From Micavibrio sp. (GTDB taxonomy: Bacteria; Pseudomonadota; Alphaproteobacteria; Micavibrionales; Micavibrionaceae): 39,357 nucleotides of DNA. Below, piece by piece: positions 4-28,981 of this stretch. The translations under genes and the position numbers were made by a program. Within the stretch, counting starts at the first letter, position 1. Each line of letters starts with the position of its first letter. The stretch is taken from positions 1-39,357 of the forward strand of contig JAHQVU010000040.1 in NCBI GenBank assembly GCA_019634145.1, given 5' to 3'. The notes under the pieces are model-generated. The model saw only the letters and a program-made list of their open reading frames with translations, ran no database searches and had not been told where the DNA came from.

Positions 4-1929
4 TTAGCCAATTTTAGGAATATCTGCCGGTTGAGTAATCATGCCCAACTTCCGGTCTTCGTTTTTAATTTGAGGATTATCGTCCGTCACATTCGGCTGG
101 TCTTCTTTTGGCTCCCAATTCGAGCGCGTTGCAAGCTTGATAACTTCTGCCGCATTGCTCATCTTACCCCATTCCATATTGGCAATAAATTCAGGGGTAT
201 TATTGCGTGCAGCGATTACGGACGGATCTTTCGGATCATCCACCAATCTCGCCGTAACACTGCCATCATCATGGCTCAGCATGATTTCCGCGCCGTCTCT
301 TGTTTGGGCAACCATGCCTTTTGATGTATCGAATGAAGTGTAGTTTTCCATGCCCTCGAAGGCATTTCCGAATTTTTCGGCCTGTTTATCTGTCAGGCGA
401 AGCTCTAGTTTATCCCAGTTGCGACCTTCAAGATTTGCGGCATCGCTTACAAATTCACCGACATTAAAACTTTCGAATTTATGCTCAACTGGATTGAAAC
501 GCGTGAGGTCGATTTTTTCATCACCGCCAAGGGTCAGAATGCCTATCTTTGCGGCTTCGATATTATCGGCGCCTTTGATCTTGTTACCATCCATCAAAAC
601 ACGCTTCCAATCTTCGGCGGCGGGGCTGCGACGGCTCGTGCGATCGAAGCCGTCCGTACGATCAACAACGTTGCGTTCAACTTCCCGAGGCTTATAGCCG
701 GGCTGTCCGGGCTTACCCTGACGTTCTTGGGTCACTTTTGTGGTCACTTCTTTTTCAAATTGAATGCCTTCGAAGCTGGCATTATTGTAACTATTACTTA
801 GCTCACCTTTTTCGACAGCAGATTTGGTGCCATCAGGCTCTTCTATCTTGCCTATTTCAGTTTTCGGCTTATCCTCTTCTGGCGCTGGATTAGATTCGGC
901 ATGATTGATCACGGCCTTGATATCTTCCGGATCAAGATTATTCTCGGTTGCGTATTCTTTCAATGCTTTTCGCGTACGTGAACCAAGCTTGCCATCAACG
1001 GCAGGTTGATCAACGCCATTGCTATCCGTCCATTTCAGATTTTCCTCATAAGATGGCTTGGCTTTGATCAGCGCGGCCTGTAGGCGTTTAACGGTATCGA
1101 GATCTGGCACTTTCTCAACTTTTGTCGCCTGTTCAAATTGCGATTTAGCTTTAGCGCCACCTGCTTGCAGCTCTTCTGCTTGCAGCTCTTCTGCTGGCGG
1201 CTCTTCTGCTGGCGGCTCTTCTGCTGGCGGCTCTTCTGCTGGCGGCTCTTCTGCTGGCGGCTCTTCTGCTGGCGGCTCATCTACTGGCGGCTCTTCTGCT
1301 AGCGGCTCGGCTGCTTGTGTCACCTGTGCGGCTTGTTCGGATACTTTTGTTTGTACACCCAGATTTTTCAGCACAGTGGCCGCAACTTCGGCATCATTAT
1401 CTTCAAGGAATATTTGTGCTGCCGCTTTATCCTGCGGTGAAATTGAATCTTTTGCGACTGTTTCACGTGACCGACCGCCCATTGATTGCGGATCAAGCTC
1501 ATCGAGCATGTTTTTTAATGCAATCTTTGAAATGGAGGCTACAGCAATACTAAGTTGATCCTTGATGCTTGCTTCTTCGCTGGCATATGAAGCAGCTCTT
1601 TTCTGAAAGCTGTCCGCATTTGCCATAGAGCCCCAAGGGTTTAAATCACTGTTTAAATTCTTAATATTATCTAATGAAATTTGTGAGCCTGCGTTTTCAA
1701 CAGCTGCGGCTTTAAGCTGTCCTTGGACATATTCTTGAACTTTTTCATTTACTTCGGGATCTTTAAGGGCGTTAAGGATGGCTGCTCGTTGATCATCGCC
1801 TGGCTTTGCGCCGGAAGCATCTCTGATAAGGATGTTGAAAGGATCATCGCCAAATGTTGGTAGCATTCTGCTCGACAGGAAAAATCCTGTATCACCAATT
1901 TGCAAAGTTTCTTTTAATTTCTCAGCCAT
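4..1929 (-). CDS. Large acidic protein with PPAEE repeats and a peptidoglycan-binding-like segment
   Basis: This 641-residue protein is not recognised as a named family. It starts at ATG 1929, preceded by a good ribosome binding site (GAGGG, 7-nt spacer). No signal peptide or membrane segment is visible. An N-terminal region of about 200 mostly helical-looking residues is followed by Pro/Glu-rich pentapeptide repeats (PPAEE, about residues 209-253). Next comes a stretch at roughly 275-340 resembling a PG_binding_1 fold: VKRLQAAL, then VDGKLGSRTRKALKEY, the usual 'D-G-x-x-G-x-x-T' turn before a helix. The C-terminal 300 residues are charged and rich in Asp, Lys and Asn. The repeat probably acts as a linker between domains. 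A cytoplasmic or non-classically exported protein with a wall-binding module is possible. The stop is 4 bp from the window edge, so downstream neighbours are unknown. Confidence 0.8.
   Translation of the reverse strand: MAEKLKETLQIGDTGFFLSSRMLPTFGDDPFNILIRDASGAKPGDDQRAAILNALKDPEVNEKVQEYVQGQLKAAAVENAGSQISLDNIKNLNSDLNPWGSMANADSFQKRAASYASEEASIKDQLSIAVASISKIALKNMLDELDPQSMGGRSRETVAKDSISPQDKAAAQIFLEDNDAEVAATVLKNLGVQTKVSEQAAQVTQAAEPLAEEPPVDEPPAEEPPAEEPPAEEPPAEEPPAEEPPAEELQAEELQAGGAKAKSQFEQATKVEKVPDLDTVKRLQAALIKAKPSYEENLKWTDSNGVDQPAVDGKLGSRTRKALKEYATENNLDPEDIKAVINHAESNPAPEEDKPKTEIGKIEEPDGTKSAVEKGELSNSYNNASFEGIQFEKEVTTKVTQERQGKPGQPGYKPREVERNVVDRTDGFDRTSRRSPAAEDWKRVLMDGNKIKGADNIEAAKIGILTLGGDEKIDLTRFNPVEHKFESFNVGEFVSDAANLEGRNWDKLELRLTDKQAEKFGNAFEGMENYTSFDTSKGMVAQTRDGAEIMLSHDDGSVTARLVDDPKDPSVIAARNNTPEFIANMEWGKMSNAAEVIKLATRSNWEPKEDQPNVTDDNPQIKNEDRKLGMITQPADIPKIG
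1171..1305 (-). repeat. 15-bp coding tandem repeat
   Basis: Nine 15-bp units in tandem. Six are identical (plus-strand unit CTCTTCTGCTGGCGG, 1186-1275), flanked by three variant units. Because 15 is a multiple of three the frame is kept, and each unit encodes one PPAEE-type pentapeptide. Near-identity of the central copies at the DNA level suggests recent slippage, so copy number may vary between strains. Confidence 0.95.
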
Positions 1930-21715: not shown

Positions 21716-22621
21716 CTAACCCTCCTCGTCTTGCTGCTCTTCAGCGGCCATTTCCGCCATTTCCTGTTCGCTGCGAATTTTTTCATTTCGCGTTTGTAAT
21801 AAAGCCATAATCTCGGCGGCGGTTTCTTCGATCGAGCGCTTGGTTACATCAATCACCGGCCATCCTTTCTTTGAAAAGAGGCGCCTTGCAAGACGTATTT
21901 CATCTTCAATACGGTCTTCATCAAGATAGGCGTTTTCTTCGATATGGGCGGCAATCTTTTTATCTTTTGAATTGGTGCTAAGGCGCGTCCTACGCAGTTG
22001 GATGAGGCGATCCGGTGTTGCGATCAACCCCACATACATAGGTTTTTTTAATGAGAGTTTTTCATCGGGTACATCAACGCCCGGTACCAGAGGGATATTT
22101 GCAGCCTTGATCCCGCGCCGCGCCAAAAAGATGCTGGTCGGGGTTTTAGAGGTTCGCGAAACACCCACCAAAATGACATCGGCTTTTGATAAGCCTTTGA
22201 GTGTTTTTCCATCATCATGGCTCATCGCATAATCAACGGCCTCAACACGTTTAAAATAAGCATCATCCATAGCGTGTTGCAGCCCAGGAACGCCTTTCGC
22301 GTGCTCACCCAAATAGCTTGAAAGAGATCTAATGATAGGATCGAGTACGGCGACACATGGCACACCCATTTCTTCGCAAAATTCAGCCAAACGCTCGCGC
22401 ATTGAATTATCCACAAATGTGAAGATTACAGGGCCGGGATTACTACGAATTTGAGCGATCACTTTTTCAAGCTGGCGCGTTGTTCTAACTAAAGGCCAGA
22501 ATTTCTGTATAGGGTCAACATGATCAAATTGCGCGATACAGGCGCGCGCTAAACCCAGAAGAGTCGTGCCGCTTGCATCGGAGACCAAGTGCAAATGAAA
22601 TTTCTTTTTATCTTCGTTCAT
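21716..22621 (-). CDS. ppsR: Pyruvate,phosphate dikinase/PEP synthase regulatory protein (DUF299)
   Basis: Bifunctional serine/threonine kinase and pyrophosphorylase that switches PPDK or PEP synthase off with ADP and on with phosphate. The start is put at ATG 22621 (MNEDKKKFHLHLVSDASG), which has AGGA at 7 nt; ATG 22627 is two codons earlier and lies too close to that site. The P-loop-like motif GVSRTSKTPTSIFLA and the N-terminal SDASGTTLLGLARA mark the family. At 301 residues it is slightly long owing to a Glu/Met-rich tail (about the last 25). It is the RP001/CC_0001 homolog, in most alphaproteobacteria the direct neighbour of the origin. Here three genes separate it from the predicted origin. 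Confidence 0.92.
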   Translation of the reverse strand: MNEDKKKFHLHLVSDASGTTLLGLARACIAQFDHVDPIQKFWPLVRTTRQLEKVIAQIRSNPGPVIFTFVDNSMRERLAEFCEEMGVPCVAVLDPIIRSLSSYLGEHAKGVPGLQHAMDDAYFKRVEAVDYAMSHDDGKTLKGLSKADVILVGVSRTSKTPTSIFLARRGIKAANIPLVPGVDVPDEKLSLKKPMYVGLIATPDRLIQLRRTRLSTNSKDKKIAAHIEENAYLDEDRIEDEIRLARRLFSKKGWPVIDVTKRSIEETAAEIMALLQTRNEKIRSEQEMAEMAAEEQQDEEG

Positions 22622-22675
22622 GCGCATATCCTAAGCATGCGCAGCGCGATAGAAAAGCTTTATATGAGAGAGACT

Positions 22676-23815
22676 TTATAAATCCCGTAATTTTTCGATA
22701 TCGGCTGTGAATTCACCACTAGGGAAAATACGTGAGGCGAGGTCTGCGTTACGGAACGGTACACCCTGAACACGGGTTACACTCATATCATGCAAAATTT
22801 GCATTAAGTGTGCCTGATTAACCATGCTGGTCATACCTGTGAACAAAGGATCACCCATGATCTCGCGCCCTTTATGGTGGAGGTAGGCCGTTCTGTCCGG
22901 TAAACAAGATAGACTTTCGATTTTAATCGGCGTCAATTTTTCATGGCCGAAAATCTGCTTTAACCCTTGTCTTTCAGTCATGATCATATCCAGATCATTC
23001 AAAATCTCATGTTCACACAGATCCAGACGCTCAGGGTTTCTGAACCATTGAACAAAGGAGGCTGCCAAAGCCTGGCCATTATCAAGCGAGGAAGGATCAC
23101 GATCCACATATCCCGCAAAACGCATGGCTATATCGCCATCTTCACTGCCAACCAGATGACGCCAGAGGCTGCCATGGCCTTCACCACGAATTTCCCAAGC
23201 GACCATGACTGCCATTACATCCAGATCAGCCGCGCGCACACGCTCAAGCATTAGGATATCGGCGGGCGCATAAATCTCGTCAAAGCCACCATGGCGCTTT
23301 TCCTGCCACACATCGCGAAGAGCGCGGGTAAAGGAAACAAGCAAAATATTACGGAAATATTCGCTGCGCCCTAATGCTGATAAAAGCATTCCTGCGCTAT
23401 CAAGTACGATTAGATGATCGGGCACATCAATGTGAAAATCAGGGCCGTTTAAATCTTCGAGAGACACTGTCCACCCTTCATTCATTGCCTCTTGCAACAT
23501 AATCGATCCGGCTGCGCTCATTGACACTTGCGCGCATAACCATGACAGAAGACCGAATTTGTCACTTAGCGAGATCTCGGCATCAAAATCATTTGAATAA
23601 TCATAGCATTCAGATTCATAGAACAAATCTTCTAATGACCAAATATCGTATATATCATCAACAATCGGTAAATCCGGCTCACAGATTTCCGTGAAATTTC
23701 GCAAAGCCTGAAATTTAGAGGTTTTTTGTGTCTTTTTTGAATGTGTATCGATTGGCTGCATATCTGAAGATCCTGCTTTCTTATTCTCCAGACCAGCGCC
23801 GTAGATAAACGACAT
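22676..23815 (-). CDS. Unknown protein B of a tandem paralog pair (DUF6782-like?)
   Basis: A 379-residue protein; start chosen at ATG 23815, which has AAAGGA about 10 nt upstream. The frame is open further to 23965, but that would put 185 bp inside the preceding gene. Residues about 110-300 align with the upstream paralog: TRALRDVWQ (163-171) with RELRRHYQH, AADLDVMAVMVAWE with SADLIVSVIRAAWE, and DNGQALAASFVQWF (245-258) with NNGQAMAAVFEAWF. The tail LTP..LP..YL..IM.D..FT is also shared. I associate this pattern, from memory only, with the putative metallopeptidase family DUF6782, in which an HExxH-like motif (HELRH) would sit where TRALRD is. The histidines are missing here, so catalysis is unlikely. 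No signal peptide. Function unknown. Confidence 0.75.
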   Translation of the reverse strand: MSFIYGAGLENKKAGSSDMQPIDTHSKKTQKTSKFQALRNFTEICEPDLPIVDDIYDIWSLEDLFYESECYDYSNDFDAEISLSDKFGLLSWLCAQVSMSAAGSIMLQEAMNEGWTVSLEDLNGPDFHIDVPDHLIVLDSAGMLLSALGRSEYFRNILLVSFTRALRDVWQEKRHGGFDEIYAPADILMLERVRAADLDVMAVMVAWEIRGEGHGSLWRHLVGSEDGDIAMRFAGYVDRDPSSLDNGQALAASFVQWFRNPERLDLCEHEILNDLDMIMTERQGLKQIFGHEKLTPIKIESLSCLPDRTAYLHHKGREIMGDPLFTGMTSMVNQAHLMQILHDMSVTRVQGVPFRNADLASRIFPSGEFTADIEKLRDL

Positions 23816-25130
23816 TTGATATTGATCCTTTATCTGATTTTGCTGCTTTTCGCTGTTTTGAAACGAGTTTTTTGCCAGATTTGGTTTTTGAGGCGCTATC
23901 AGACGCGGTGTCTGCTCCGAAGTTAAAGGAGATGATTTGCGCGGAAGCCTCGGTTGATTGCTCATTATTTTTACCTTGAGTTACTTTTGATGATTTAGCA
24001 CCGGAAGCGGCACCATTTTCAGATGTCCCTTTAGTTTGCAACTCCTGTTCCGTTTCACGGAATGAACGCTCGAACTTGATGAACCATAGGAAATTGGCAT
24101 TCGCGCGGTCACGCACATCGGTAAAAATGGCATCATCCATTATAGTGACGGCATGTTCTGCCAGGTAATTTTTGCCGAATGGTAGCTCGCCAAGCGCGGC
24201 GATTATTGCGGGTGTAAGAATCGATTCGCTTTCCTTAAATTCGAAAACATAACCCTGATGATCCGAAAGCATCTGATTGATGAGGATTTTGTCTTGTGAT
24301 CTACAACGCTCTGAAAGAAACCAAGCCTCGAAAACGGCGGCCATGGCTTGTCCATTATTAATTGTACGGAAATCCAAATAAGCTTCACGGGCAAAAGCGC
24401 GCCCTAAATCTGCCATTGATGAATTCTCGATATGTTCCCAAGCTTCCTTATAGCCTGATAGCTGTAATTCCCAAGCAGCGCGAATAACAGAGACGATAAG
24501 ATCAGCACTTTGAGCGCGGTGAACAAGCACGGCATTATCAGGGTGGAATGTTAATGGATTGATAAGTGCGCCAGCGCGGTGTTGATAATGACGGCGAAGT
24601 TCACGAATAGCCAAAAATACACGATCAGTCTCGTTAATTTCAGGGTTAATGAATATTTTCCCTGCCTGACGATCATAAAGTGCTGTTTCGATTTGTCCGC
24701 TGAAGCAAATTTCTATGCCATATTTTTCAGCCGTTTCCACATATCCAGCGGCTAGGCGTGATTTTTTAAGAAGAGCTATGAACTCTTTAAGTTCAACTTG
24801 ATCCTTTTTGTGCTGGCCGGTAATGAAATCGCTGTTCATGAAGAATGTTTCAACTTTTTTTTCTGTGCTTAGAGCGGATGAAAAATTAACTGAGTCAAAG
24901 CTATCGAGCTCACGCTTTAATACATTAAGCTCATTTTCGAAAATTCCATAGTCGGCTGCATCAAGGAGTATGTCATCGACATCTTCGTAACGGTGCTCAA
25001 AATCCATATAAAATAATGGTTGCGAGCCGATATAGGTGCATTCAACCGGTTGATGATTGTTGAGCGTGTAAGCTACACGCGGCTGTATTTTTATATCATC
25101 ACCTGATGTTGTTTTGTTGATATCACTCAT
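23781..25130 (-). CDS. Unknown protein A of a tandem paralog pair (DUF6782-like?)
   Basis: A 449-residue protein starting at ATG 25130 with AAGG at 8 nt. A variable N-terminus (1-115) precedes the domain shared with the neighbouring gene (about 120-350). A C-terminal tail (about 360-449) is rich in Ser, Thr, Lys and Ala and looks disordered. Within the domain, YDRQAGKIFINPEI leads into a helix with RELRRHYQH (176-184), where HExxH metallopeptidase relatives would have HELRHxxQ. The Glu is kept but both His positions are Arg. NNGQAMAAVFEAWF (258-271) is the best-conserved block between paralogs. It overlaps gene B by 35 bp, so the two are almost certainly co-translated. No export signal. Function unknown; a scaffolding or regulatory pseudoenzyme is an inference. 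Confidence 0.78.
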   Translation of the reverse strand: MSDINKTTSGDDIKIQPRVAYTLNNHQPVECTYIGSQPLFYMDFEHRYEDVDDILLDAADYGIFENELNVLKRELDSFDSVNFSSALSTEKKVETFFMNSDFITGQHKKDQVELKEFIALLKKSRLAAGYVETAEKYGIEICFSGQIETALYDRQAGKIFINPEINETDRVFLAIRELRRHYQHRAGALINPLTFHPDNAVLVHRAQSADLIVSVIRAAWELQLSGYKEAWEHIENSSMADLGRAFAREAYLDFRTINNGQAMAAVFEAWFLSERCRSQDKILINQMLSDHQGYVFEFKESESILTPAIIAALGELPFGKNYLAEHAVTIMDDAIFTDVRDRANANFLWFIKFERSFRETEQELQTKGTSENGAASGAKSSKVTQGKNNEQSTEASAQIISFNFGADTASDSASKTKSGKKLVSKQRKAAKSDKGSISNVVYLRRWSGE

Positions 25131-25282
25131 TGACCCGACCTTTTTTTATTTTACCCTGAAAGTTTTTTGGCGATATTGCCCCTTTCGAGTCTTATTATGC
25201 CCCCCAACTTCTTAACAGAACCTTTCTAAAAAGTAGAAAAATTCAAGAAAATCTGCGTATTATAGAAAATAAAAGTCATTCC

Positions 25283-25297
25283 TTAATCCTTCGTTTA
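25283..25297. promoter_or_regulatory. CtrA-like site (one mismatch)
   Basis: TTAA-N7-TTTA against the Caulobacter CtrA consensus TTAA-N7-TTAA, about 155 bp upstream of paralog A. The DNA is AT-rich, so chance occurrence is likely. It is listed because an exact copy lies on the other side of the predicted origin. Confidence 0.25.
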
Positions 25298-25373
25298 CCA
25301 AACAGTAACGAAGCATTAATAAACAGTGATTTTATGGAATTTAGATCGAGGGTATTGAATAAGGTTTTAGAAA

Positions 25374-25988
25374 TTATTGACCAAGCGTGTCATCGAGAAC
25401 TGGCATATCTTCCACCAAGAGTTCTTCGTCATGAATAGAAACAAAACCGTTAGGTTGAATTTTTACGAGTGAGCGAAAGAGCGAATCTTTAAAAATCATG
25501 CATACGCGCAGATGGTATGTTCCCTTCTCATCCACTTTTTCTAATTCTACTGGGCTGATCAATTCACCCACTGCTTTACGCGCGGCCGGTGGCGGATCAT
25601 CTTTCCATGCGATCGCATCAACATTTTCTACGATTAAAAAACGACCATAGCGTCCACGAACGAAATTAAAGAAAAACCTTAAATAATCCTGCGCATTATT
25701 CTCATTCAATGTAATTGGCAGTGATTGGTTGAATTCATAAATAGATTCATTGGAAAAGTTTAAAACCAGATCACGTTCATCATTGGTAACCACAAAGCGC
25801 TTAATTTCAGGCGTTAAGGACTGATTGGAAATCTCTAAAAGCCTAAAGCCGGGATAAAATGAAAGGTTCTGAGCAAGGATAATTGTCTCTTTTTCAGAGA
25901 ATTGAGTGCCATCAAACAAAGGATTAAGGCGATTTACAATTACACCTGCTTCCTTTGACCCTAGTTTTTTATAAATTTCCTGATTCAT
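25374..25988 (-). CDS. Unknown 204-residue protein next to the origin
   Basis: Not recognised. The protein begins MNQEIYKKLGSKEAGVIVNR and ends LLVEDMPVLDDTLGQ. It is soluble, rich in Phe, Asn and Leu, with several strand-like stretches (RFLIVENVDAIAW, GTYHLRVCMIFKD, VKIQPNGFVSIHDEELLVE). No membrane segment or catalytic motif is obvious. It is the gene nearest the predicted oriC on its left side, transcribed away from it, and is followed 243 bp later by the paralog pair on the same strand. A GANTC site overlaps its start codon (25982), which could tie its expression to methylation state during replication. Confidence 0.75.
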   Translation of the reverse strand: MNQEIYKKLGSKEAGVIVNRLNPLFDGTQFSEKETIILAQNLSFYPGFRLLEISNQSLTPEIKRFVVTNDERDLVLNFSNESIYEFNQSLPITLNENNAQDYLRFFFNFVRGRYGRFLIVENVDAIAWKDDPPPAARKAVGELISPVELEKVDEKGTYHLRVCMIFKDSLFRSLVKIQPNGFVSIHDEELLVEDMPVLDDTLGQ

Positions 25989-26412
25989 ATGATCTTATTG
26001 TGGTTTGTTCTTATACCCCTAGATACAACAGTGTTAGCATAGATTCGATTCGCATGACAGGTTAGTAAATGTCTTTGTATAAATTTGTGCATAAATGGGT
26101 AGAAAAATTATGGGGTAATTCAGGGAAAAACTTATCCAGATTCGATAAGATTTTTTCAAGGGCTGTTTTACCCATGAGGATAAGAGAGATGTATGAAAAT
26201 GTGTTTATCTGAACGAATCATAGCGAATCGCTGGAAATAGATGAGATTTAAAGAAAGCAGCAATGGGGATAAGTTCGGGGTTAAAAACTATACCCATGAT
26301 TCACAGCCCCTACTCTTTACTAATACCTTTAATTAAATAAATATTAAGATTGGTAAGGAGAGAAAAATAAGGCATTGTGCCGTTTAAATTTTGATCAGTA
26401 TTGGATGAACAG
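25989..26412. other. oriC: Predicted chromosomal replication origin (oriC)
   Basis: A non-coding region between divergent genes, on the hemE side where the alphaproteobacterial origin lies. It holds six GANTC sites within 261 bp (26042, 26047, 26139, 26215, 26225, 26298) plus one at 25982. It also holds three 9-mers one base from the DnaA box TTATCCACA: TTATCCAGA at 26132 (+), TTATCCTCA at 26175 (-) and TTATCCCCA at 26264 (-). AT-rich DNA follows at 26319-26400 and could be the unwinding element, and an exact CtrA motif is included. Genes on both flanks point outward, consistent with fork direction. GANTC is the target of the cell-cycle methylase CcrM in this class. Confidence 0.8.
26333..26347. 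promoter_or_regulatory. CtrA-binding motif upstream of hemE
   Basis: An exact TTAA-N7-TTAA match (spacer ATAAATA), 66 bp before the hemE start codon chosen here. In Caulobacter CtrA binds such sites in Cori to block initiation and to control the hemE-side promoters. AT-richness of the spacer lowers specificity, but position supports it. Confidence 0.5.
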
Positions 26413-27468
26413 ATGGCGGGAGAAATGGTTCCCAAAAAAATATTAAAGGTTTTGCAGGGGGAATGTTTCGACGTTCCGCCTTTCTGGTTTATGCGGCAAG
26501 CGGGGCGGTATTTGCCTGAATATCGAGAATTACGGGCTGAAAAGGGCGGTTTTTTGGCGATGGCTTTTGATCCGAAGGCGGCATGCGAGATTACTTTGCA
26601 ACCCATTCGCAGGTTTCAAATGGATGCAGCGATTATTTTTTCGGATATTTTGGTTGTCCCGATGGCTTTGGGTCAGCATTTGGAATTTGTGGCAGGTGAA
26701 GGGCCTAAGCTCGAAGCTTTAGCAGATACGCAGGATTTATGCAGATTATCGGATAAGCATTTTGATGTTCTTGATCCTGTTTTTGAAGCTTTAAACTTGA
26801 CCAGAGCGGGATTGAAGCAAGAAGGTTTTGAAAGTACCGCCTTGATCGGTTTTGCAGGTGCGCCGTGGACGGTTGCGACCTACATGATCGAAGGTGGGTC
26901 ATCGAAGGATTTTTATAAAACGCGGCTTTGGTCGTATCGTGATCCAGAAGGGTTTCAAGCCTTGATGGATATGTTGGTCGAGACGACGGCGCGGTATTTG
27001 ATCAAGCAGGTTGAAGCAGGCGCAGAAGCTTTGCAGATTTTTGATAGCTGGTCAGGTGCGCTTGACCCTATAAGTTTTGAAAAATGGTCGATTGCCCCAA
27101 CAAAGGAAATTATTGCACGTGTTAAAGCGGTTCATCCCGATGTTCCGATCATTGGTTTTCCAAAGGGCGCCGGGCATAATTTAGAGAAATACGTTTGTGA
27201 AACCGGTATTGACGGGGTGGGCATTGATCAATTTACGCCTCTCGATTATGTTTCTTCGAACATTCAGACCAAAATACCGGTGCAAGGGAATCTTGATCCA
27301 TTTGCGCTTTTAGCAGGCGGCGAAACATTGGATAGGGCGGCAAAAGAGGTTCTTGATAGCTTGAAGGGTAGGCCATTTATTTTCAATCTTGGTCACGGAA
27401 TTAACAAAGATACACCGCCGGAGAATGTCGAAAGGCTGGTTAAAATTATTCGCGGGGAAAGTGTATGA
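26413..27468 (+). CDS. hemE: Uroporphyrinogen decarboxylase
   Basis: Converts uroporphyrinogen III to coproporphyrinogen III in haem synthesis, by four decarboxylations. Family hallmarks are FWFMRQAGRYLPEYRELR near the N-terminus, IIFSDILVVP with the catalytic Asp, GFAGAPWTVATYMIEGGSS and 'FNLGHGI'. The start is uncertain. ATG 26413 (351 residues) is reported; TTG 26401 and ATG 26425 (347 residues, beginning MVPKKILKVLQGE, closest to the usual family start) are alternatives. It is the first gene of a hemE-hemH-hemJ operon with overlapping junctions, and borders the predicted origin as in Caulobacter. Confidence 0.95.
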   Translation: MAGEMVPKKILKVLQGECFDVPPFWFMRQAGRYLPEYRELRAEKGGFLAMAFDPKAACEITLQPIRRFQMDAAIIFSDILVVPMALGQHLEFVAGEGPKLEALADTQDLCRLSDKHFDVLDPVFEALNLTRAGLKQEGFESTALIGFAGAPWTVATYMIEGGSSKDFYKTRLWSYRDPEGFQALMDMLVETTARYLIKQVEAGAEALQIFDSWSGALDPISFEKWSIAPTKEIIARVKAVHPDVPIIGFPKGAGHNLEKYVCETGIDGVGIDQFTPLDYVSSNIQTKIPVQGNLDPFALLAGGETLDRAAKEVLDSLKGRPFIFNLGHGINKDTPPENVERLVKIIRGESV

Positions 27469-28532
27469 GCGAGAAAATTGCAGTTGTAATGTTTAATCTT
27501 GGCGGGCCGGATTCAAAAAATGCGATCCGTCCGTTTTTAATGAATTTTTTCATGGATAAAAATATCATATCCCTGCCTATCCCTTTTCGTTGCTTTATTG
27601 CGAATGCGATTTCTAAAAAGCGCTCTAAAAGAGAGGCTGCAGAAAGTTATAACGAGCTGGGGAATGTTTCGCCGTTATTAACAAATTCCAAGATGCAGGC
27701 AGTGGAGCTGGAAAAAGAATTAAACAAGGAAACAGGCGCGGAGTTTAAAACTTTTATCTGTATGCGCTATTGGCATCCGATGGCTGCGCAAGTGGTGCGC
27801 GAGGTCAGAGATTGGGGAGCGGATAAGATCGTGATTTTGCCGCTTTATCCGCAATTTTCAACGACGACGACTTGGTCATCTTTGGAGCAGTGGAATAAGG
27901 TCATGCATGTTGCGGGGATGGATTTACCGACCTCTACGATTTGTTGTTATCCGATGAATGATGGTTTTATCGAGGCTTCTGCTTTGAATATTATGCGATG
28001 TTTTGAAAAAGCCAAAGATGATGGGCATGAGAATATCCGTGTTTTATTTTCAGCCCACGGTTTACCGGAAAAAATCATTAAGGGCGGTGATCCTTATCAA
28101 TATCAATGTGAAAAATCTGCCGAAAAAATAGCAGCCAAATTAAAAGAAAAAACAGGCCAAAAACTTGATTGGCAAATTTGTTATCAATCTCGCGTCGGGC
28201 CGATGAAATGGATTGGCCCTTCTTTGGATGAGGCTTTGGAAAAAGCAGTAGTCGATGAAAAGGCGGTGATTATCTATCCGCACGCTTTTACGCAAGAGCA
28301 TGTGGAGACGCTGGTCGAGCTGGATATTGAATATCGGGAAATGGCAGAGCATAGCGGCATTAAAGGCTATTATAGGGCTGATACTGTTGGTATCCATGAT
28401 GAATATATCAATGAAATGGCGTCTTTGGTTAAAAAGCATACTGATGTAAGTGGTGTTCATGCAGAGGGGATGGAAAGCCTTTGCCCTTCTGGTTTTTCGC
28501 GCTGTTGTATGCGTAATGAGGTTCAGGTCTGA
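27465..28532 (+). CDS. hemH: Ferrochelatase
   Basis: Final haem-synthesis step: inserts ferrous iron into protoporphyrin IX. The 355-residue protein has VMFNLGGPDSKNAIRPFL at the N-terminus, the catalytic His198 in FSAHGLPEKIIKGGDPY and the metal-path glutamate in FTQEHVETLVELDIEY. The C-terminus contains cysteines (LCPSGFSRCCM) reminiscent of [2Fe-2S]-type ferrochelatases, whose cluster uses C-terminal Cys residues. It overlaps hemE by 4 bp and hemJ by 1 bp. Confidence 0.95.
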   Translation: MSEKIAVVMFNLGGPDSKNAIRPFLMNFFMDKNIISLPIPFRCFIANAISKKRSKREAAESYNELGNVSPLLTNSKMQAVELEKELNKETGAEFKTFICMRYWHPMAAQVVREVRDWGADKIVILPLYPQFSTTTTWSSLEQWNKVMHVAGMDLPTSTICCYPMNDGFIEASALNIMRCFEKAKDDGHENIRVLFSAHGLPEKIIKGGDPYQYQCEKSAEKIAAKLKEKTGQKLDWQICYQSRVGPMKWIGPSLDEALEKAVVDEKAVIIYPHAFTQEHVETLVELDIEYREMAEHSGIKGYYRADTVGIHDEYINEMASLVKKHTDVSGVHAEGMESLCPSGFSRCCMRNEVQV

Positions 28533-28981
28533 TGCAAGAGTGGCTTTTACTTCATTATGATTGGCTCAGGGCGCTACATATTATTTCGGTGATATCGTGG
28601 ATGGCGGGAATGCTGTATTTGCCGCGCCTTTTTGTTTATCACAGTGAGAGCGAGATTGGATCTGATAAAAGCGAGACCTTTAAAGTCATGGAGCGGAAGC
28701 TTTTGAAGATTATTATCAATCCTGGTATGGGCTCATCTTGGCTTTTCGGTCTTGGAATGCTGTTTGCGAATCCGGGATTATTACAAGGTCAGGGCTGGAT
28801 GCATGCAAAGTTATTCCTGGTTTTGGTTTTATCAGCGATCCATGGTATTCTGGCTAAGGCGGTAAAAAAGTTTGAGCGGGACGAAAATACAAAGAGTTCG
28901 AAATATTATCGCATCATAAATGAAGTTCCGGCTGTATTAATGATTTTAATCGTTATATTTGTGGTTGTTGAGCCATTCTAA
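28532..28981 (+). CDS. hemJ: Protoporphyrinogen IX oxidase, HemJ type
   Basis: Membrane enzyme that oxidises protoporphyrinogen IX before iron insertion. It replaces HemG/HemY in most alphaproteobacteria. The 149-residue protein has four hydrophobic helices and the family motif LRALHIISVISWMAGMLYLP with the conserved His, then RLFVYHSES, and 'GWMHAKLFLVLVLSAIHG' with a second conserved Lys/His set. The start overlaps the hemH stop (TGATG), so the three haem genes form one operon. The usual next gene rho is not here; a carboxypeptidase gene follows instead. Confidence 0.93.
   Translation: MQEWLLLHYDWLRALHIISVISWMAGMLYLPRLFVYHSESEIGSDKSETFKVMERKLLKIIINPGMGSSWLFGLGMLFANPGLLQGQGWMHAKLFLVLVLSAIHGILAKAVKKFERDENTKSSKYYRIINEVPAVLMILIVIFVVVEPF

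Follow-up and report, generated by a model that had tools for sequence, protein, structure and literature searches.

Introduction

In E. coli, the origin oriC carries GATC sites, and Dam and SeqA are the proteins associated with them. In Caulobacter and its relatives the origin neighbourhood is of the hemE type, with hemE on one side and PPRP, maf, aroE and coaE on the other; PPRP is the classic left-hand gene at such origins. The ori1 of Agrobacterium we take to be a DnaA-type origin.

According to the available portion of the work by Gonzalez and colleagues (PMC3973325), the origin of Caulobacter holds several GANTC motifs. The same portion cites extra chromosomes upon over-expression of CcrM, and it reports that cells without ccrM have a wild-type-like DNA content in minimal medium, CcrM being judged dispensable for the control of initiation. 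For Agrobacterium, the accessible text of PMC11514494 describes GANTC motifs that overlap ori2 and over-initiation at this origin when CcrM is over-expressed; in that text, ori1 numbers show no significant change on either depletion or over-expression of CcrM. The repABC origins are described as GANTC-rich in the excerpted part of a review (PMC6090056). Origins of the hemE type, BUS elements and GANTC sites in Caulobacter origins are known. Our literature search, which covered few subscription journals, returned no account of hemE-type origins that share a GANTC cluster across an order, and none of a BUS box that contains a GANTC site.

The hemE neighbourhood of the window

The window, meaning the whole stretch of 39,357 nucleotides analysed here, is the complete contig 31 of an assembly of 87 contigs and 1.87 Mb (completeness 92%). 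By hemE, the relatives of this genome are Alphaproteobacteria. The original prediction had placed a replication origin between a divergent gene of 204 residues and hemE, and this is now strongly supported by synteny, the GC skew of relatives, DnaA boxes and a conserved unwinding element. The features of the neighbourhood are as follows.

25989..26415, no strand: predicted oriC, the gap between the divergent 204-aa gene and hemE (ATG at 26416), assigned by synteny, the skew flip of relatives and DnaA boxes
26416..27468, plus strand: hemE, right neighbour of the origin, from profile matches
27465..28981, plus strand: hemH and hemJ, from profile matches
25374..25988, minus strand: gene of a 204-aa protein, left neighbour of the origin, present in 55 of 57 genomes searched (window genome included)
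21716..22627, minus strand: PPRP-type kinase/pyrophosphorylase (Kinase-PPPase), from a profile match

As had been proposed, hemE is the right-hand neighbour, and the nearest genes on both sides diverge from the gap. On the left side, the 204-aa gene and two further open reading frames are followed by PPRP, maf, aroE, coaE and a DnaQ-type exonuclease, and each of these is oriented away from the gap. The gene order is thereby that of a hemE-type origin, with three additional open reading frames separating PPRP from the gap. Two of these (22676-25130, minus strand) overlap each other and both match DUF6782, a putative metallopeptidase; they lie between PPRP and the 204-aa gene.

A copy of the 204-aa gene adjoins hemE across the gap in 45 of the 47 searched genomes in which hemE was also found, and diverged paralogs occur elsewhere in the genomes. 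The protein had no match in Pfam or NCBIfam. Its AlphaFold model is confident (mean pLDDT 90.4); Foldseek gave no match to it at E ≤ 0.001, and the VIA-align rows, with Z values of at most 5.2, held no clear PDB match, a result that does not in itself make the fold a new one. A search of positions 25000-27000 with Rfam at gathering score found no RNA family. At 1459-1474 (plus strand) the window carries its one parS-like sequence with 3 mismatches, a result reached by 15 of 100 shuffles.

GC skew of single-contig relatives

As the window genome is split into 87 contigs, the GC skew was followed in single-contig relatives. For G029, of whose 2.46 Mb 800 kb were sampled, the skew changes sign between two 2-kb bins, those of 224 and 226 kb, within 2 kb of the gap upstream of hemE (start at 224,638, minus strand). 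In G074, a member of family f5 (400 kb sampled of 2.67 Mb), the flip is located between 2,596 and 2,606 kb, a range that includes hemE (2,601.6 kb). The contig of G027 (400 kb sampled of 2.46 Mb) begins 262 bp before the hemE match; here the skew is positive in the first half and negative in the second. Each of the three shows the opposite change about half a chromosome away. In the window itself the local skew changes sign, from -0.035 at 22-26 kb to +0.166 at 26.4-30.4 kb. A cumulative skew minimum at the gap, taken over the complete chromosome, had been suggested as a check. The flips of all three relatives lie at the homologous gap, in agreement with an origin here; the cumulative minimum of the window alone is at 1981, outside the gap.

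This minimum at 1981, as well as the incomplete chromosome of the window genome, would suit a gap that is merely a divergent promoter region, with the true origin elsewhere among the 87 contigs. We give this explanation hardly any credence, given the sign change at the homologous gap in three single-contig relatives, and the DnaA boxes and conserved unwinding element within the gap argue against it as well. The chromosomal origin, where DnaA fires, is very probably the gap 25989-26415, judging from the sequence data.

DnaA boxes and a CtrA-like site

The gap contains the following boxes and one further motif.

26086..26094, minus strand: DnaA box TTATGCACA, 1 mismatch
26132..26140, plus strand: DnaA box TTATCCAGA, 1 mismatch, overlapping a GANTC site
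26175..26183, minus strand: DnaA box TTATCCTCA, 1 mismatch
26264..26272, minus strand: DnaA box TTATCCCCA, 1 mismatch
26333..26347, no strand: TTAAN7TTAA, CtrA-like site, the single one in the gap

Three DnaA-like 9-mers with one mismatch had been announced for this region; the boxes are indeed present, but their number is four (26086, 26132, 26175 and 26264). They cluster within 187 bp, where about 8 such boxes are expected per 39 kb of window. Across the whole window one-mismatch boxes are not enriched, as 11 of 100 shuffles reach the observed count of 12, and both perfect boxes of the window (22407 and 33139) are located outside the gap. In family f1, to which the window genome belongs, the mean is only 1.13 one-mismatch boxes per 500 bp.

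Control by CtrA in the manner of Cori was considered as well and rejected: several conserved sites would be required, and the gap has a single TTAAN7TTAA, at 26333, that is not conserved in f1. Since the mean in this family is 0.11 per genome, the site is probably there by chance.

A putative BUS-type unwinding element

In the right part of the gap, two further features were recognized.

26288..26318, plus strand: BUS-type unwinding element, consisting of the weak box CTATACCCA, the box TGATTCACA with a GANTC site at 26298-26302, GCCC and three DnaA-trio-like triplets
26319..26350, no strand: A+T-rich stretch and presumed melting region, with about 0.8 A+T in 40-bp windows starting at 26310-26330

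The search rule for BUS elements, as worded in the available text of PMC8287927, asks for a DnaA box with at most 2 mismatches, a spacer of 0-16 and at least 3 NAN triplets. It is matched at 26297 (box TGATTCACA with 2 mismatches, spacer of 4, 3 triplets), though the rule is loose and has 40 matches in the window. More specific evidence came from the relatives. Matches to hemE were found in 82 of 94 genomes, the window genome counted, and 70 of the 82 were analysed (the other 12 were not fetched). A string conserved upstream of hemE could be anchored in 41 of the 47 f1 members with full-length upstream DNA and was turned into a profile. Its order (TATCCCC box, NNNTCACAG box, GCCC spacer, CTA-rich triplets, A+T-rich run) is the order of a BUS. 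With the window genome left out of the profile, its element scored 39.7 at 26284-26325. The best score in the remainder of the window was 7.9, and none of 20 further stretches of the genome (320 kb) exceeded 11.3. Scores of at least 15 were obtained for 60 of the 70 upstream regions, a count that is partly circular, as 41 of the f1 sequences had trained the profile. In 23 of these 60 elements a GANTC site lies, at one of two registers, inside the trio-proximal DnaA box. Unwinding probably uses the element at 26288-26318, as far as its order and conservation indicate.

Taken together, DnaA would load on the boxes at 26086-26305 and open the A+T-rich stretch beside the BUS-type element at 26288-26318. 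Helicase loading would then set up two forks, one running along hemE and the other along the 204-aa gene, PPRP, maf and aroE.

GANTC sites in the gap

25982..26302, no strand: cluster of seven CcrM-type GANTC sites, at 25982, 26042, 26047, 26139, 26215, 26225 and 26298
26225..26229, no strand: conserved GANTC site, present in 34 of 47 f1 members, middle base free

All seven sites that the original prediction had counted were found. None of 2000 dinucleotide shuffles of 25975-26305 reached this number (shuffle mean 1.34). The description of the sites as lying between the two genes needs a correction: six are intergenic, while 25982 already belongs to the 204-residue gene, at its 5' end. Within 25989-26400 alone there are 6 sites, against a shuffle mean of 1.16, and at least 6 were seen in 1 of 2000 shuffles. 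The motif is 11.9-fold more frequent in the gap than in the window, and none of the other 15 palindromes of the form XYNY'X' exceeds 2-fold. Over its full length, the window has fewer GANTC than expected (70 against 153). The G+C content of the gap (25989-26415) is 0.34.

The sites could be a by-product if coding DNA avoids GANTC and long gaps escape this avoidance. In line with this, the sampled sequence of the window genome has 2.14 GANTC per kb in non-coding and 1.42 in coding DNA, and an about 2-fold intergenic excess in Ensifer is given in the consulted part of PMC8725594. Furthermore, the origin gap of G029 ranks only second of 117 gaps, another being denser. The gap of the window, however, has 14.6 sites per kb, far above other non-coding DNA, and ranks first among 69 gaps sampled in its genome; the excess over dinucleotide expectation in f1 and the retention of one site with a free middle base, both described below, also speak against a by-product. 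We regard this explanation as very unlikely. Instead, the sites look kept as methylation sites, and the cluster at hemE appears to be old, as read from the comparison of relatives that follows.

GANTC sites across relatives

The full 500 bp upstream of hemE were available for 47 genomes of f1, 2 of f2, 9 of f3, 6 of f7 and 4 of f5; per-family means exclude two of the 70 genomes, G056 and G027, in which the upstream DNA is truncated. Members of f1 average 5.11 GANTC in these 500 bp, and 1.03 per 500 bp in the rest of the locus. Similar means were found in f2 (4.50), f3 (4.33) and f7 (4.50). The sister family f5 has a mean of 1.00, with 0-2 sites in all four genomes (L032, L048, L051 and L061). 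Individual f1 members also have no cluster: G046 has 1 site, and G008, G009, G022 and G028 have 2 each. Relative to dinucleotide expectation, GANTC in f1 is 2.68-fold over upstream of hemE and 0.53 elsewhere, and with a 4.94-fold upstream enrichment it tops 16 comparable palindromes (runner-up 2.39). CcrM sites, avoided in the rest of the genome, are thus kept at the origin core in 4 of the 5 families compared.

The position 26225 of the conserved site follows from the window's row in the alignment and from the distance of 10 bp between columns 518 and 528. Its column counts (n = 47) are G 38, A 43, N (A 25, C 16, T 3, G 3), T 38 and C 42, a pattern more readily explained by a methylation site than by a binding site whose sequence is fixed. 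At 26215-26229, two GAATC sites 10 bp apart adjoin a TTATCTG string; the aligned columns read GANTC in 17 and 34 of the 47 f1 members, respectively.

When the 60 of 70 genomes with an element were aligned on it, the GANTC density peaked at 23 per kb, 50-100 bp to the left of the element. Between element and hemE there are 18 sites in 6177 bp, or 2.9 per kb, which is near background. As the density peaks beside the element and drops toward hemE, the sites do not track the hemE promoter.

A wider sample consisted of 78 of 80 alphaproteobacterial loci selected by hemE similarity, i.e., best matches and not a random draw (L184, with only 31 bp upstream, and L198 were left out). In 58 of the 78, the 500 bp before hemE held at least 4 GANTC (mean 4.87, expectation 2.44, rest 1.02). 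Splitting this sample did not favour an origin effect: the mean was 4.16 for gaps of at least 250 bp (n = 32) and 5.37 for shorter ones (n = 46), and it was 4.59 at element scores of at least 15 (n = 17) and 5.08 at scores below 10 (n = 52).

GANTC clusters at other genes

Several other clusters were observed. On contig 83 of the window genome (L002 2689-2811) there are 8 GANTC in 123 bp upstream of ccrM, which is denser than the origin cluster, and G004 has seven in 300 bp upstream of ccrM. G029 has a cluster upstream of gcrA (L113 13031-13190; 8 in 256 bp), and G027 has 5 sites in a gap that precedes dnaA by roughly 0.5 kb (L119 15125-15270). On contig 25 of the window genome (L142 16356-16572), 6 sites in 217 bp cover the start of a short FtsB/DivIC-like open reading frame, named by eye, and the gap to enolase.

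CcrM and the possible role of methylation

A CcrM homolog, whose presence had been named as a check, was found in the window genome. It is an N6-adenine methyltransferase with a RAMA domain and a DPPY motif, and it scores 615 bits to NF050803, the NCBI model of CcrM, under the model cut-off of 830. GcrA and DnaA are encoded as well. A match to the CcrM of the window genome (E 0.001) occurs in 91 of the 94 genomes, the window genome included, and in 69 of the 69 of good quality, some of the matches being weak or partial (e.g., G043 and G058). Sequestration of the Dam/SeqA type was rejected, since the 92%-complete window genome has no match to PF03925 (SeqA) and the E. coli control was positive.

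The GANTC cluster does not accompany CcrM and a hemE origin everywhere: f5 has CcrM and, in the member tested (G074), an origin at hemE, yet no cluster. This family represents either a natural loss of the cluster or an independent state. For a second and broader comparison, 192 genomes of the class were searched; hemE was matched in 159, and from these 30 RAMA-positive and 30 RAMA-negative ones were chosen. The picture was weaker here and heterogeneous. G272, in which the contig ends just upstream of hemE, was dropped, leaving 29 RAMA-negative genomes. RAMA-positive genomes had 2.47 GANTC upstream of hemE (1.54 expected, n = 30) and RAMA-negative ones 2.00 (1.71 expected, n = 29). The upstream excess did not differ significantly between the two groups (Mann-Whitney p = 0.19, Fisher p = 0.40), nor when the contrast was limited to genomes with at least 2 DnaA boxes (p = 0.34). 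The RAMA split agrees with the CcrM protein search except for G102 (43%-identity match). As several RAMA-negative genomes are themselves depleted of GANTC, the split may say little about the recent history of CcrM.

If the seven GANTC sites are CcrM targets maintained by selection, they would be hemimethylated after firing until CcrM acts late in the cycle, assuming the timing of Caulobacter. The hemimethylated state would most likely adjust the binding of DnaA or GcrA at the origin. Methylation might in this way modulate initiation, as the original prediction of CcrM-type timing had suggested. We put this step forward tentatively: f5, the contrast by RAMA and the wild-type-like DNA content of Caulobacter without ccrM speak against it, and the ori1 result from Agrobacterium makes it slightly less likely still.

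The same place could be oriC while the cluster serves transcription, with GcrA reading methylated GANTC at the promoters of the divergent 204-aa gene and hemE, and initiation not being directly affected. As GANTC clusters are also found upstream of ccrM, gcrA and dnaA, and thus mark other regulatory gaps, this role is a live rival. The window genome has the gcrA gene, and the consulted part of PMC8116508 ties CcrM and GcrA to promoter control in Caulobacter. Against it stand the density maximum beside the unwinding element and the low density toward hemE, although for the sites on the left a role at the 204-aa gene is still conceivable. The GANTC sites within the trio-adjacent DnaA box of 23 of 60 elements also speak against it, as does the lack of GANTC in the stretches upstream of gcrA and dnaA in the window genome. 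All in all, transcription is a serious possibility that we do not favour. We assign a probability of roughly 0.6 to the whole account we prefer: an oriC opened by DnaA at a BUS-type element, with selected CcrM sites adjusting the binding of DnaA or GcrA.

A stricter version would make the GANTC site inside the trio-adjacent DnaA box a direct gate of CcrM on melting. The methylated or hemimethylated adenine would alter the docking of DnaA, and the other sites would tune its loading or recruit GcrA. We consider such a gate unlikely; if true, it would parallel Dam control without the help of SeqA in several families of the order, and f5 would be a case of natural loss. Together, the conserved site, the site in the unwinding box and the cluster-less f5 offer a concrete comparative test of a direct role of CcrM at DnaA/hemE-type origins.

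Comparison with known origins

The result would locate the replication origin of a lineage whose genomes are mostly in many contigs. The GANTC site in the BUS box, together with the order-wide cluster, is a testable twist and possibly new.

The locus resembles Caulobacter Cori and other hemE-type origins in that hemE follows it immediately, while PPRP, maf, aroE and coaE lie on the opposite side. It also shares with them DnaA boxes and several GANTC sites, the latter as given for Caulobacter in the available portion of PMC3973325. It differs from Cori by the three extra open reading frames between PPRP and the origin (two of DUF6782 and the 204-aa gene), and by having only one CtrA-type TTAAN7TTAA, not conserved in the family. 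In its order of boxes, its 4-bp GC spacer and its three triplets, the unwinding element fits the BUS rule published in PMC8287927, as far as the accessible text of that paper goes; compared to that text, the boxes of the window are weak (2 and 3 mismatches) and the trio-adjacent one holds a GANTC site.

With E. coli oriC the locus has in common a cluster of sites for a solitary adenine methyltransferase that is encoded in the same genome. Here, however, the motif is GANTC and the enzyme CcrM, SeqA was not found, and the genome is otherwise depleted of the motif. The repABC origins, including Agrobacterium ori2, are alike in that GANTC overlaps the origin and that the CcrM level alters initiation at ori2, according to the excerpts available from PMC11514494 and PMC6090056. 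As presented in these excerpts, they belong to RepABC replicons and ori1 is without a significant response, whereas the origin described here would be a DnaA/hemE-type chromosome origin.
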